Source: Acidobacteriota bacterium (GTDB taxonomy: Bacteria > Acidobacteriota > Terriglobia > Terriglobales > Acidobacteriaceae). From it: a stretch of DNA of 10,670 bases. Made by a program: the position numbers and the translations under genes. The stretch is taken from NCBI GenBank assembly GCA_021841795.1, contig JAKCDN010000069.1, positions 1 through 10,670 on the forward strand. The letters are read 5' to 3'. The notes beneath the pieces are model-generated. The model had not been told where the DNA came from, did no database searches, and saw only the letters and a list, made by a program, of their open reading frames with translations. Below, piece by piece: positions 3,870-8,914 of this stretch (positions within the stretch are counted from its first letter, which is position 1; each line of letters begins with the position of its first letter).

Positions 3870-6800
3870 ATGGACGATCTGACAAGAGAGTTCCTGATCG
3901 AAAGCCAGGAGGGACTGGACCGCATGGAGCGGTGTCTCACCGAGCTGGAGGAACGGCCGCAGGAGACGGCGCTGCTGGCCGAGATCTTTCGCTCCGTGCA
4001 CACCATCAAGGGGACCACAGGGTTTCTGGGCTACAAACGGCTGGAGAAGCTGGCCCACGCCGGCGAAAACCTGCTCGGGCAGTTGCGCGACGGCAGGGTG
4101 CAGGCCGGCGCCGAGGTGATTACCGCCCTGCTCAAGCTCCTCGACGGGCTGCGGGAACTGCTCCGGACCATTGAAGCCGAAGACAACGAGGGCGCCGGCG
4201 ACGACAGCGCGCTCATTGCCCGGCTGGAAGAGCTCCAGGCGCCGGTCCATCCGGGCCAGGCCCAGGCCGCGCGCCGGGAGACCCGCGCCGCCGCGCCCTC
4301 CGCGCCCGTGGCTTCCGAGCCTGCGCCCGCACCGTCCGAGCCCGTCCCGCCGTCGGCTGAAGCCGCAAAAGCGCGGTCCCAGGGAGCGGCGGCCGAAAGC
4401 ACCCTGCGCGTCGATGTGGCCCTGCTCAACCGCATGATGAACCTGGTCGGCGAGCTGGTGCTCACGCGCAACCAGGTCTTGCAGGCGACCGCCTCCGACC
4501 CCAACATGACCCTGCTCTCGCGGCGGCTCGACATGGTTACCGCCGATCTGCGCGAGTCGGTCATGAAGGCGCGGATGCAGCCGGTCTCGAACGTCTTCTC
4601 CAAGATGCCCCGCCTGGTGCGCGATCTCACCCATGCCCTCGGCCGCAGGGTGCGTCTGCAGATGGAGGGCCAGGAGACCGAGCTGGACAAGAGCCTCCTC
4701 GAGGCCATCAAGGATCCCCTCACCCATGCGGTGCGCAACGCGCTCGATCACGGAATCGAGCCGCCCGGCGCGCGCCAGGCCGCGGGCAAGGAGCCGGAGG
4801 GCACGCTCACCCTGCGCGCGGCGCAGGAGGGCAGCCACGTGATCATCGAGGTCGCCGACGACGGCGCCGGCATCGCTCCCGACAGGATTCGCGCCAAGGC
4901 CATGGAGCGCGGGCTGCTCACGCCCGAGCGCGCCGCGCACCTCGGCGAGCGGGATCTGCTGCAGCTCATCTTTCTGCCCGGATTCTCGACCGCCGCGCAG
5001 GTCACCAACGTCAGCGGGCGCGGCGTGGGCATGGATGTGGTCCGCACCAACGTCGAGAAGATCGGCGGCAAGGTCGAGGTGGACTCGCGCGTGGGCAAGG
5101 GCACCACCCTGCGCTTGCGCATTCCGCTCACGCTCGCGATCATCCCCGCGCTCATCGTGCGCAGCATCGGGCAGAGCTTTGCCCTGCCGCAGGGCGCTTT
5201 ATCCGAGCTCGTGCACATCCCCCCCGAGCGCGCCGCGGCCGCCATTGAGTGGATGGAGGGCGCGCCGCTCTACCGGCTCCGCGGCCATCTGCTCCCGCTG
5301 GTGTTTCTTGACCGCCTGCTCACGCCCGGGCGCGCATGCGGACTTTCAACCGGGCGCGACAACTTTATCGCCGTGCTCGACGCCGATGGACGCCGCTTCG
5401 GCCTGGTCGTCGATTCGCTCGCCGATCCCGAAGAGATCGTGGTCAAGCCCCTCAGCGCCGTACTCAAGGATATCGGTCTCTTCTCCGGCGCCACCGTGCT
5501 CGGCAACGCGGACCTGGCGCTGATCCTCGATCCCGGATCGATCGCCGTGAAGGCGGGTGTCGCGCTGAGCGGCGAAGACGAGTCCGCGCTCGCCGTCGAG
5601 GATGAACAGGACGCCGCCCGCAGCCGCTACCTGCTGGTCGAGGTGGCCGGCAGGCAGGCCGCCGTGCCGCTTGGCGATGTGCTGCGCATCGAACAGGTTC
5701 CCTTCGCGCGGGTCGAGTACATCGGCTACCGCCCCGTGCTCAACTTCGAGGGCCAGCTCCTGCCGGTCGAGGATTCCGGCGGCCTCCTCGAAGCCGCCGC
5801 GGGCGATCCCGCCATGCGCATCGTGGTCGTCGTCTGCCGCGACGGCAGCCGGCACGTGGGCATTGCCGTGACCCACGTGCTCGACGTTACCTCCGGCGGC
5901 AGCCTCATCGAGGCCGGCACCGGAACCCCCACCGACGGCGTCACGCTGCTCAAGGATCGCGTCACCGGCATCGTCAACCTGGGCGGCGTGCCGCCCCTGC
6001 CCGCGGCAGACGGCGCCCCGGAACCATGGCCGCAGGCCGAGGAGGTGGCGCAATGCGCACAACCGCAGGCACTGCCCCGCACAGACTCAAAAACGAGACC
6101 CTGGTCGAGCTTTGTTCCGTCCGCGTGGGCAAGACCCTGTTTGGCGTCCCCATCCGCCACATCCTGGAGATCGTGGGCTCTACCCGTCCCCGGCCCGTTC
6201 CCCTGGCGCCCGGCTTCGTGGGCGGACTCGTCCATTACCGCGGCGATGTCCTCACCACCGTCAGCCTCCGCCATCTGCTCGATCTGCCCGCCCTCGAATC
6301 CGCCCAGGACATCCTCGTCCTCGAAAGCGCGGCCGGGTGCTTCGGCTTGCTGGTCGATTCGGTTGGCGAGGTGCTCACCGTCCCGGCCGTCGACTACGAG
6401 CCCAACCCGTCGATCCTCGACCGGCGCCGCGGAGCCCTGCTGGCCGGCGCCTACAAGCTCAAGGACACCCTGCTCGTCATGCTGGATCCGGAACGCCTGG
6501 ACCCGGCGCGCCTCGGCGAGTCGCGGCTCGGCGATTCGCAGGCGGCATAGTGGCGCGCGCAACCATCCCATCGGGAGGAAGACAATGCGGGCACTGATCG
6601 TGGACGACTCGCGCTTTGTCAGAGGCTACCTGCGCGGCATGCTCGAAGAACGGGGCATGGCCTGCGAAGAGGCCGCCGACGGACGCGCCGGCCTGGAGCG
6701 GCTGCATAGCGGCATCCGCTTCGACCTCGCGCTGCTGGACTGGAACATGCCCGTCATGAACGGGCTCGAGATGCTGCGCCGGCTGCGCGCCGAGGGCTTC

Positions 6801-6953
6801 GGCGACCTCAAGGTCATGATGGTCACCACAGAGGCCGAAAACGACTACATCGTCCGCGCCCTCGATGCCGGAGCCGATGAGTATCTGATGAAACCCTTCG
6901 ACGACGAAGCGCTCAATGAAAAACTGGCCATACTCGGCATGGTGGAGGCCTGA
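3870..6953 (+). CDS. cheA: Chemotaxis histidine kinase CheA; frame open into cheY
   Basis: Receptor-controlled kinase that autophosphorylates and passes phosphate to CheY and CheB. Domains: HPt at 1-105 with phosphorylated H44 in VHTIKGTTGF; a Pro/Ala-rich linker at about 123-175 where the CheY/CheB-binding P2 domain would usually sit; dimerisation helices at about 178-240; an ATPase domain with N-box HAVRNALDHGIE (286-297), G1 DDGAGI (330-335) and G2 GRGVGMDVV (383-391); a CheW-like P5 domain at about 418-560; and a second, more divergent CheW-like domain at about 586-706. The ATG at 3870 begins MDDLTREFLIESQEGLDRME, the normal CheA N terminus, with GGGAG just upstream. Recognisable CheA ends near 5990. 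No stop follows: the frame reads CAA TGC at the cheW start, crosses cheW in the wrong frame as a Ser/Pro/Arg-rich stretch (about 730-905), and joins cheY in frame from residue 906 to the TGA at 6951-6953. That makes 1027 residues as written. The intended product is probably about 728 residues, with a TGA lost at 6054-6056. Identity is certain; the 3' end is not. Confidence 0.85.
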   Translation: MDDLTREFLIESQEGLDRMERCLTELEERPQETALLAEIFRSVHTIKGTTGFLGYKRLEKLAHAGENLLGQLRDGRVQAGAEVITALLKLLDGLRELLRTIEAEDNEGAGDDSALIARLEELQAPVHPGQAQAARRETRAAAPSAPVASEPAPAPSEPVPPSAEAAKARSQGAAAESTLRVDVALLNRMMNLVGELVLTRNQVLQATASDPNMTLLSRRLDMVTADLRESVMKARMQPVSNVFSKMPRLVRDLTHALGRRVRLQMEGQETELDKSLLEAIKDPLTHAVRNALDHGIEPPGARQAAGKEPEGTLTLRAAQEGSHVIIEVADDGAGIAPDRIRAKAMERGLLTPERAAHLGERDLLQLIFLPGFSTAAQVTNVSGRGVGMDVVRTNVEKIGGKVEVDSRVGKGTTLRLRIPLTLAIIPALIVRSIGQSFALPQGALSELVHIPPERAAAAIEWMEGAPLYRLRGHLLPLVFLDRLLTPGRACGLSTGRDNFIAVLDADGRRFGLVVDSLADPEEIVVKPLSAVLKDIGLFSGATVLGNADLALILDPGSIAVKAGVALSGEDESALAVEDEQDAARSRYLLVEVAGRQAAVPLGDVLRIEQVPFARVEYIGYRPVLNFEGQLLPVEDSGGLLEAAAGDPAMRIVVVVCRDGSRHVGIAVTHVLDVTSGGSLIEAGTGTPTDGVTLLKDRVTGIVNLGGVPPLPAADGAPEPWPQAEEVAQCAQPQALPRTDSKTRPWSSFVPSAWARPCLASPSATSWRSWALPVPGPFPWRPASWADSSITAAMSSPPSASAICSICPPSNPPRTSSSSKARPGASACWSIRLARCSPSRPSTTSPTRRSSTGAAEPCWPAPTSSRTPCSSCWIRNAWTRRASASRGSAIRRRHSGARNHPIGRKTMRALIVDDSRFVRGYLRGMLEERGMACEEAADGRAGLERLHSGIRFDLALLDWNMPVMNGLEMLRRLRAEGFGDLKVMMVTTEAENDYIVRALDAGADEYLMKPFDDEALNEKLAILGMVEA
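6053..6550 (+). CDS. cheW: Chemotaxis coupling protein CheW
   Basis: Scaffold protein that links chemoreceptors to CheA at the membrane array. It is a single CheW domain of 165 residues: LVELCSVRVGKTLFGVPI (17-34), IRHILEIVGSTRPRPVPLAP (34-53), GFVGGLVHYRGDVLTTVSL (54-72), then VLESAAGCFGLLVDSVGEVL (89-108). The run FGVP...EI...PVP...P.fv.GLv.yRG follows the family pattern. I chose the ATG at 6053 because AGGAGG (6040-6045) lies 7 bases before it. An ATG nine codons earlier has no such site and would only add a Gly-rich MAAGRGGGA. Third codon positions are strongly G/C in this frame, so this is the true coding frame of the stretch. The gene is overlapped along its whole length by the stop-free cheA frame. 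It precedes cheY by 34 bases and is co-transcribed with it. Confidence 0.93.
   Translation: MRTTAGTAPHRLKNETLVELCSVRVGKTLFGVPIRHILEIVGSTRPRPVPLAPGFVGGLVHYRGDVLTTVSLRHLLDLPALESAQDILVLESAAGCFGLLVDSVGEVLTVPAVDYEPNPSILDRRRGALLAGAYKLKDTLLVMLDPERLDPARLGESRLGDSQAA
6585..6953 (+). CDS. cheY: Single-domain response regulator CheY
   Basis: Receiver domain of 122 residues that, once phosphorylated by CheA, normally diffuses to the flagellar motor switch. The acidic pair D7-D8 (LIVDDSR), phosphoacceptor D52 (LLDWNMPVMNG), T81/T82 (MMVTTEAEN) and K103 (MKPFDD) are all present. There is no output domain. It has its own ribosome site, GGGAGGA at 6573-6579, five bases before the ATG, so a separate CheY should be made even if cheA reads through. 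The gene is in the same frame as cheA with no stop between them, so the identical sequence would also form a C-terminal receiver on CheA. cheB starts three bases after its stop. Confidence 0.93.
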   Translation: MRALIVDDSRFVRGYLRGMLEERGMACEEAADGRAGLERLHSGIRFDLALLDWNMPVMNGLEMLRRLRAEGFGDLKVMMVTTEAENDYIVRALDAGADEYLMKPFDDEALNEKLAILGMVEA

Positions 6954-6956
6954 ACC

Positions 6957-8072
6957 ATGACGGCAGAAGGCCGCACCCGGGTGCTGATCGTCGAGGACTC
7001 CGCCGTCATGCGCAGCCTGCTGCGCTCCGTCATTCTCTCCGACCCCGCCCTGGAGATGGCCGGAACCGCCGCCGATGGCGCATCCGCGCTCGACTGCGTG
7101 CACCTCCAGCCTCCTGACCTGATCCTGCTCGATGTCGAGATGCCCGTCATGGACGGCCTGGCAACCCTGCGTGAGCTGCGCGCCCGCCGCCACACCATGC
7201 CCGTCATCATGTGCAGCTCGCTCACCCAGCGCGGAGCCAGGGTCACAATCGAGGCTCTGGCCTGCGGCGCCTGCGACTATGTCGCCAAACCCACCGGGCA
7301 GCAGAACCGCGAAGCCGCCACCCGCGCGCTCGCCATGGAGCTGCTGCCCAGGATTCACGCCCTCGTCCGCCATGCGTCGGCCTCGCGCCCCGCCCCGCGC
7401 AGCCTCCTGCCCATCCCCGCGCCCCCGCCGCCCGCCCAATCCTCGGCAAAGCCCCTGGCGCTGGCAATCGGAGTCTCCACCGGCGGCCCGGCGGCCCTCG
7501 ACGTCCTTCTGCCGCAGCTCCCCGCCGGTTTCCCGCTCCCGGTCCTGATCGTGCAGCATATGCCCGAGGTCTTCACCCGCCTGCTGGCCGAGCGGCTCAG
7601 CCGCCGCTGCTCCCTGCGCGTGCTCGAAGCCGCTGACGGCATGCCCGCCGCCGCCGGATATGCCTACATCGCGCGCGGCAACTGGCACCTGCAGGTCGTC
7701 GCCGCCGCCCGGCCCGGCGCTCCCGCCACGCTCCATCTCAACCAGGAGCCTCCTGAGAATCACTGCCGGCCCGCCGTCGATGTCCTCTTCCGCTCCGCCG
7801 CGCGGGTCTACGGCCCCGGCGCGCTCGCCGTCGTGCTCACCGGCATGGGGTGCGACGGCCTCGCCGGCGCGCGCGCCGTCCGCGATCTGGGCGGCGCCGT
7901 CCTCGCTCAGGACCAGGCCAGCAGCACCGTTTGGGGCATGCCCGGAGCCGTCGCCCAGGCCGGCCTCGCGTACAAGGTTCTGCCCCTCTCCGCCCTGGCC
8001 GCGGAGATCGTCCGCGTCGTCGGCCATCTCCCTCACCCCGCTCCCGCCCCCGGCTTCGCAAGGATGGTGTAG
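6957..8072 (+). CDS. cheB: Protein-glutamate methylesterase/deamidase CheB
   Basis: Removes methyl groups from receptor glutamates and deamidates receptor glutamines, giving adaptation feedback when phosphorylated by CheA. The 371-residue protein has an N-terminal receiver (about 7-125) with E13-D14, phosphoacceptor D59 in LILLDVEMPVMDG and K111 in AKPTG. A Pro/Ala-rich linker (about 140-165) leads to the C-terminal methylesterase. Catalytic residues are S174 in GVSTGGP, H201 in VQHMP and D300 in TGMGCDG. HCRPAVDVLFRSAA (269-282) is the family's usual H.P.VD.LF block. The ATG at 6957 follows the cheY stop by three bases, with GGAGG overlapping the end of cheY, so it is likely translated by coupling. 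All active-site residues are intact and the length is normal. Confidence 0.96.
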   Translation: MTAEGRTRVLIVEDSAVMRSLLRSVILSDPALEMAGTAADGASALDCVHLQPPDLILLDVEMPVMDGLATLRELRARRHTMPVIMCSSLTQRGARVTIEALACGACDYVAKPTGQQNREAATRALAMELLPRIHALVRHASASRPAPRSLLPIPAPPPPAQSSAKPLALAIGVSTGGPAALDVLLPQLPAGFPLPVLIVQHMPEVFTRLLAERLSRRCSLRVLEAADGMPAAAGYAYIARGNWHLQVVAAARPGAPATLHLNQEPPENHCRPAVDVLFRSAARVYGPGALAVVLTGMGCDGLAGARAVRDLGGAVLAQDQASSTVWGMPGAVAQAGLAYKVLPLSALAAEIVRVVGHLPHPAPAPGFARMV

Positions 8073-8074
8073 CC

Positions 8075-8914
8075 ATGGAACCGACAGTGAATGCCGACTA
8101 CGGCTACCTGCGCCAGGTCGTCTTCGGAGTCTCGCAAAACGTCCTGGACGCCTCCCGGGATTACCTCTTCGACACTCGCCTCGCCAAACTCCTGCGCAAC
8201 CAGGGCATGGCCCGGCTCGACGAGCTCGTCCGCAAACTGCGGATCGAGAAAAACCCCGCCCTCGAACGGGAAGTGGCTGAGGCCATGACCATCAACGAGA
8301 CCAGCTTCTTCCGCGATCTCCGCCCGTTCGAGCTGCTGCGGCAGGAGCTGCTCCCCAGGCTCATCGCGGCCCGCCGGGCCCGCCGCACCCTCCGCCTCTG
8401 GAGCGCCGCCTGCGCCACCGGGCAGGAAGCCTACAGCCTGGCCATGATGCTCCTCGAAAACTTCCCCAGCCTCGCCGGATGGAACCTCGTCATCGAGGGC
8501 ACCGACATCTGCCGCGAGGTCGTGCAGCGCGCCCAGACCGGCCGCTATCATCGCATCGAGATCAACCGCGGCCTCCCCGCGCGCTACGTCGTCCGCTACT
8601 TTGACCGCCAGGGCGAAGATTGGATCGTCAGGCCCGAGCTGCGCCGGCTCTGCCACTTCCGCCAGGCCAACCTCTGCGGCCCCGTCCTGCCCTTCAACCG
8701 TTCCACCGACGCCTTCGACGTCATCTTCCTCCGCAACGTCATGCTCTACTTCGATCTCCCCACGCGTCGCGCCCTCATGGCCGGCATCCATCGCCTGCTC
8801 GCGCCCGATAGCATCCTCTTCCTCGGCTCCAGCGAGCAGCCGGTCGATATGGCGCCCTGGACCCCCGTGCTCGCCGGCGGCACCTGCCACTACCGCCCCA
8901 GGCAGGCCGGCTGA
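8075..8914 (+). CDS. cheR: Chemotaxis protein methyltransferase CheR
   Basis: S-adenosylmethionine-dependent enzyme that methylates receptor glutamates, opposing CheB. The 279-residue protein has the N-terminal helical domain, then TINETSFFRD (72-81), the SAM-binding loop LWSAACATGQEAYSLAM (108-124), EGTDI (141-145) and DVIFLRNVMLYFD (215-227), matching the family's D.I.CRNV.IYFD. There is no C-terminal TPR extension, so it resembles the plain motility-type CheR. The ATG at 8075 lies two bases after the cheB stop with AAGGA about 10 bases upstream. An upstream-extended reading would only overlap cheB in another frame. It is the last gene of the operon and is followed by an intrinsic terminator. 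Confidence 0.96.
   Translation: MEPTVNADYGYLRQVVFGVSQNVLDASRDYLFDTRLAKLLRNQGMARLDELVRKLRIEKNPALEREVAEAMTINETSFFRDLRPFELLRQELLPRLIAARRARRTLRLWSAACATGQEAYSLAMMLLENFPSLAGWNLVIEGTDICREVVQRAQTGRYHRIEINRGLPARYVVRYFDRQGEDWIVRPELRRLCHFRQANLCGPVLPFNRSTDAFDVIFLRNVMLYFDLPTRRALMAGIHRLLAPDSILFLGSSEQPVDMAPWTPVLAGGTCHYRPRQAG

Follow-up and report, generated by a model that had tools for sequence, protein, structure and literature searches.

The chemotaxis operon analysed here carries a cheA gene whose reading frame runs without a stop through cheW and into cheY, which condition we attribute, with a probability of about 0.7, to a recent point mutation (TGA to TGC) at a conserved 4-base overlap of cheA and cheW in one Acidobacteriaceae (Terracidiphilus-like) lineage; the lost stop is probably real, young, and unselected. 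The window, by which we mean the whole stretch of 10,670 bp, is an entire contig of a metagenome-type assembly that is 71% complete in 380 contigs, and the relatives bearing names are Acidobacteriaceae, several of them labeled Terracidiphilus. In sequence comparisons, what points to a stop loss is the ATGA overlap in most orthologous loci, a second cheW codon lying one step from AGC, the same read-through in a second protein record (P0001), the serine at residue 2 of a near-identical CheW (P0121), a linker shared with P0001 alone, and motifs that appear intact.

From the ATG at 3870, a single open reading frame of 1027 aa extends on the + strand to the first stop at 6951–6953, the cheA frame containing zero stops from 6054 to 6950; the stop scan and the list of open reading frames thus agree with the initial annotation, which had read cheA as stopless over that distance. 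The further claims that this frame crosses cheW, encoded in another frame, before becoming that of cheY, and that it reads CAA TGC at the cheW start, are confirmed by the coordinates in Table 1, with CAA at 6051–6053 followed directly by TGC. In the Pfam analysis the read-through frame comprised Hpt, H-kinase_dim, HATPase_c, two CheW-like domains and, past residue 905, a receiver, so that the FrzE-type set of Hpt, kinase core, CheW-like domain, and receiver is present in one open reading frame; cheW and cheY contained one Pfam domain each. What we take to be the kinase and receiver motifs are intact in the read-through protein, the putative phospho-acceptor presumably being the Asp at residue 957 of the fusion. 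The linker is the out-of-frame reading of cheW together with the cheW–cheY spacer. The frames in the window that we assume to be nupC-, deoA-, cdd-, and pta-like, along with the cheB-like one, have no internal stops, and the + strand frame following cheB and ending at 8914, presumably cheR, is likewise open. The cheB gene lies in the cheY frame with only TGA ACC between (6951–6959), and another stop loss there would append CheB.

Table 1. Features of the cheA–cheW–cheY region of the window (G000:C365).
Feature	Position	Strand	Description and basis
cheA proper	3870..6053	+	residues 1-728: Hpt, H-kinase_dim, HATPase_c, two CheW-like domains (Pfam; orthologues)
Shine-Dalgarno-like site of cheW, AGGAGGTG	6040..6047	+	duplex energy -16.0 kcal/mol
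Inverted repeat 5+1+5, GCGCAATGCGC	6048..6058	+	cheW start at its centre; sequence
cheW	6053..6550	+	intact, 165 aa, other frame than cheA; PF01584; homologues
TGC in place of the cheA TGA stop	6054..6056	+	differing base 6056; junctions of orthologues
Read-through linker	6054..6584	+	177 codons, residues 729-905; no stop; no Pfam domain
cheY	6585..6953	+	intact, 122 aa, cheA frame; PF00072; C-terminal receiver of the read-through protein
cheB	6957-8072	+	

For the junctions in relatives we fetched 111 loci, of which 104 were classifiable; in six, a cheA stop or a cheW match was absent from the fetched locus, and in L002 the match to cheA was insufficient. Once exact duplicates were dropped there were 90 loci, consisting of the window's own copy, 23 that were set aside with a CheA identity below 52%, and 66 accepted as orthologous, the criterion being a best CheA segment at least 52% identical. 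The ATGA overlap was present in the cheW frame, its TGA being the cheA stop, in 56 of these 66; by text alone the count was 59, from which we removed L063 and L079, whose ATG is out of frame with the cheW match, and also L085, where the string marks the end of a fusion. This alignment of the relatives' cheA ends bears out the earlier suggestion that a TGA at the site would form the usual ATGA overlap. The cheA stop was TGA in 63 loci, TAA in two, and TAG in one, and it preceded the end of cheW in 65 of the 66, the exception being L085, where cheA is fused to cheW. A search of 80 genomes from the genus, counting that of the window, yielded 29 further loci with two previously unseen junctions, both ATGA. 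The orthologous-cheA match of L008 (G028:C118), for its part, carries one in-frame TAA.

The window junction reads ATGC, one base (6056) off ATGA, and the cheA C-terminus aligns in frame with the last residues of the orthologues right up to the stop, which differs by that one base; a frameshift near the cheA end was ruled out by the same alignment. The second cheW codon begins with A in all 56 ATGA loci and is AGC or AGT in 41, that of the window being CGC (Arg), one step from AGC (Ser). At the protein level, residue 2 in the 120 best-listed of 2661 CheW homologues is Ser in 106, Asn in eight, Thr in three, and Arg in none, the remaining three starting differently. We infer that TGA was the ancestral state of the window's lineage.

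The same read-through appears in one record, P0001, of a database of 5.8 billion proteins: with 1027 aa it matches the window's protein at 1026 of 1027 residues, the sole difference being R29W, and its linker is the same from residue 728 on. Since P0001 reads Q-C-A at residues 728–730, its second cheW codon should, by deduction from the genetic code, be CGC or TGC (Arg or Cys), which implies the same lost stop. We took the eight members of its cluster as one record and not as eight read-throughs, near-identical proteins forming separate entries in that database, so that the size of a cluster is of little meaning.

If, alternatively, base 6056 were an error of sequencing or assembly and the true gene had the usual TGA, the fragmented state of the assembly would be in keeping with such a fault, and so would the CheA lengths: of 8000 scored homologues, the 120 best-listed include 119 besides P0001, all of 735–784 aa, a receiver domain being listed for P0001 alone and for none of those 119. 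Moreover, the base that removes the cheA stop also completes the inverted repeat GCGCA-A-TGCGC of GCGCAATGCGC, and inverted repeats are a context prone to template-switch errors; by the same token the base is possibly a template-switch mutation. Against an error stands P0001, whose representative lies on a contig of 99,221 bp, in contrast to the 10,670 bp of the window's: a read-through on another, non-identical contig makes a real allele likelier than a one-off assembly error, although P0001 may come from the window's sample or even its reads. The open state of the nupC-, deoA-, cdd-, cheB-, and pta-like frames and of the frame presumed to be cheR also argues against a faulty assembly. An error is accordingly unlikely, and of the interpretation offered in the initial annotation we retain the lost TGA, the unselected-looking linker, and the stop loss, while sequence error, there named as an option, has lost ground.

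The closest CheW among the matches listed, P0121, is identical at 162 of 165 residues and differs at residues 2 (Ser), 9, and 10. As its longest contig (68,726 bp) is shorter than that of P0001, the CheW encoded on P0001's contig is a different one. If Ser2 of P0121 is encoded by the usual AGC or AGT, then the TGA would be intact there, a TCN codon being also conceivable; the cheA stop is thus probably intact in the P0121 haplotype, and an intact stop in a conspecific rests on this Ser2 together with parsimony. All three positions at which P0121 departs from the window's CheW fall inside the first 10 codons (6053–6082). Among the 80 genus genomes no conspecific DNA was found, identity over the whole query of 1554 bases reaching 78% at best, and a search of viral contigs for the junction pattern gave 0 matches. 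Another protein, P0002 (738 aa, from a 5,251-bp contig, 93% identical and with a normal end), is near-identical to CheA of the window as far as residue 660 or thereabouts, a 9-residue insertion apart, and from there on, over roughly the final 70 residues, shows a block of differences; this block, which we read as recombination or a chimeric contig, led us to leave P0002 out as a clean conspecific.

Under the preferred reading of a recent stop loss, one substitution at base 6056 would have turned the cheA TGA into TGC, with a downstream frame that by chance was stop-free through the GC-rich cheW and in phase with cheY. Ribosomes translating cheA would then run on for some 300 codons and produce CheA followed by a non-homologous linker of 177 aa and a receiver, 1027 aa in all, and CheW would lose its normal supply at an ATGA overlap, the CheA ribosome that terminates there. 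Huber et al. (2019; PMC6728339) report strictly coupled translation in 13 of 14 tested ATGA gene pairs; the overlap in 56 of the 66 cheA/cheW orthologues resembles such termination–reinitiation pairs and should tie the initiation of cheW to the end of cheA translation, whereas the window, being without the stop, is without termination at that place. Both CheW and CheY nevertheless remain encoded, each with a ribosome site of its own that allows de novo initiation. As to the receiver, that fused to FrzE is described as a likely phosphate sink which inhibits signaling at low stimulation (PMC4546325), and, by analogy, the tethered receiver might drain phosphate from the kinase; if the long protein is produced, its likeliest consequence would hence be weaker signaling. 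We suppose that this protein would be both made and stable, and that the allele would be young and either nearly neutral or mildly harmful.

The strength of the internal ribosome sites, which the initial annotation had asserted for both genes, applied to cheW and not to cheY. The Shine-Dalgarno-like site of cheW, AGGAGGTG, has a duplex energy of -16.0 kcal/mol versus a median of -9.5 and a best value of -14.1 in the 56 ATGA relatives, and is the strongest of the 57; the cheY site, at -10.3, is ordinary (median -9.8 in 57 relatives). The start region of cheW also has the most stable fold of the 57 (-18.0 versus a median of -7.4 and a lowest value of -17.8 in the 56 relatives). We do not rely on the stronger cheW site as a compensation for the lost stop, the cheY sites of relatives being nearly as strong and the cheW start fold being the most stable.

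The open frame beyond the lost stop is uncommon. In the relatives, the cheA frame past the natural stop and before cheY contains 1 to 12 stops, and in none of 63 is it open; this number derives from the 64 relatives with a cheY match (a weak one, 31–39% identical, in seven of the 63) upon exclusion of L085, whose counted stop ends the CheA–CheW fusion. In 20,000 trials of synonymous resampling of the window's cheW with the window's codon usage, 1.0% had zero stops (mean 3.3), and in 20,000 shuffles of codons within that gene 4.2% did (mean 2.3), which frequencies mean that chance can reach an open frame. The phase of cheY with cheA is unremarkable, being shared by 26 of the 64 relatives, L085 included. 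The frequencies of 1–4% and the 0 of 63 tell against an accident, an objection softened since the case was picked as striking; a second is that none of the other 56 cheW ribosome sites matches that of the window in strength, which a selected account would predict.

Those same two observations would favor a selected CheA–receiver hybrid, in which the receiver served as a phosphate sink in the manner of FrzE or CheA3 and selection had cleared the linker frame of stops: a cheW site of -16.0 beating the best (-14.1) of the 56 ATGA relatives would be expected if CheW needed de novo initiation, and CheA proteins with a receiver do occur in the genus. We nonetheless consider a selected hybrid quite improbable. 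The fusion is found in a single protein cluster and is not kept among the orthologues; the linker, rich in Ser, Pro, Ala, and Arg (48% Ser+Pro+Arg), lacks a Pfam domain and contains 10 Trp and 9 Cys; the strong cheW site is not extraordinary, as the cheY sites of relatives reach -15.9, with five of 57 at -15.0 or below; and the most stable cheW start fold of the 57 cuts against easier initiation. The Ser2 of P0121 and its near-identical CheW also tell against such selection, for the open frame may predate the stop loss. A search with the linker (residues 728–905; 2811 candidates scored), which needs shared 5-residue words and covers predicted proteins of similar length, found P0001 as the only protein. 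The linker thus looks unselected and the read-through, as judged from these comparisons, is not conserved, in line with the earlier view that a wrong-frame linker rich in Ser, Pro, and Arg fits a stop loss better than a selected linker. The length of CheW itself is normal, at 165 aa versus 153–185 aa in the 120 listed homologues.

That the strain's chemotaxis operon is decaying, with the stop loss among the first lesions, is very improbable: CheW departs from P0121 at N-terminal residues only and P0001 has Trp at CheA position 29, where Arg stands in 100 of the 120 listed CheA proteins and Trp in none besides P0001, but the other operon frames are intact, as are the presumed motifs of kinase and receiver.

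A recent stop loss fits a known class of 3'-extension overlaps, the class iii of Palleja et al. (2008; PMC2478687), arising through a point mutation of the stop codon or a 3' frameshift; as in that class, the upstream gene is longer at its 3' end and the downstream gene is of normal length. The mean overlap given there is 121 bp, whereas the extension in the window spans a whole gene of 498 bp and, by an unusual twist, finishes joined in frame to a third gene. Same-strand overlaps are also reported to originate more often from 3' elongation of the upstream gene (PMC3887535). Within our literature search on stop loss, CheA hybrids, coupling, CheA read-through, and chemotaxis in Acidobacteria, no title or abstract opening described such a case.

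The window's frame shares with FrzE of Myxococcus xanthus and CheA3 of Rhodospirillum centenum the union of a CheA-type kinase and a receiver in one polypeptide (PMC4546325, PMC3868531); these, however, are established hybrids whose receivers have been tested, whereas the window's linker is an out-of-frame cheW known from one cluster. The FrzE-like architecture proposed earlier therefore holds for the domain order, and the likeness goes no further. It is a doubtful idea that we see a hybrid kinase caught at birth, created by one base change in an ATGA, with cheW nested in another frame and a near-perfect ribosome site maintaining free CheW, haplotypes with and without the stop perhaps coexisting in one species. 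If the long protein is made, the locus would offer a one-step route, requiring neither deletion nor rearrangement, from separate cheA, cheW, and cheY to a hybrid kinase, as well as a natural test of CheW output once an ATGA overlap loses its stop; if the allele is unselected or an error, it would illustrate how one lost stop in a GC-rich operon can mimic a designed fusion.

Two CheA paralogues of the same genus, in L022 (1501–4002) and L025 (1501–4005), are 49% identical and have a receiver-like C-terminal domain, which in L025 scores just above and in L022 below the Pfam cut-off; both are likely CheA–receiver hybrids. In the Acidobacteriaceae relative L085 (6001–8715; CheA 58% identical), cheA and cheW are joined in frame into a protein of 904 aa that has three CheW domains besides Hpt and kinase, and cheY comes next. 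As in the window, this cheA has no separate end and is fused to a neighbor, but the partner joined in frame is cheW itself in L085 and cheY in the window. Together, the receivers of L022 and L025 and the fusion of L085 indicate that fusions around such junctions do arise.
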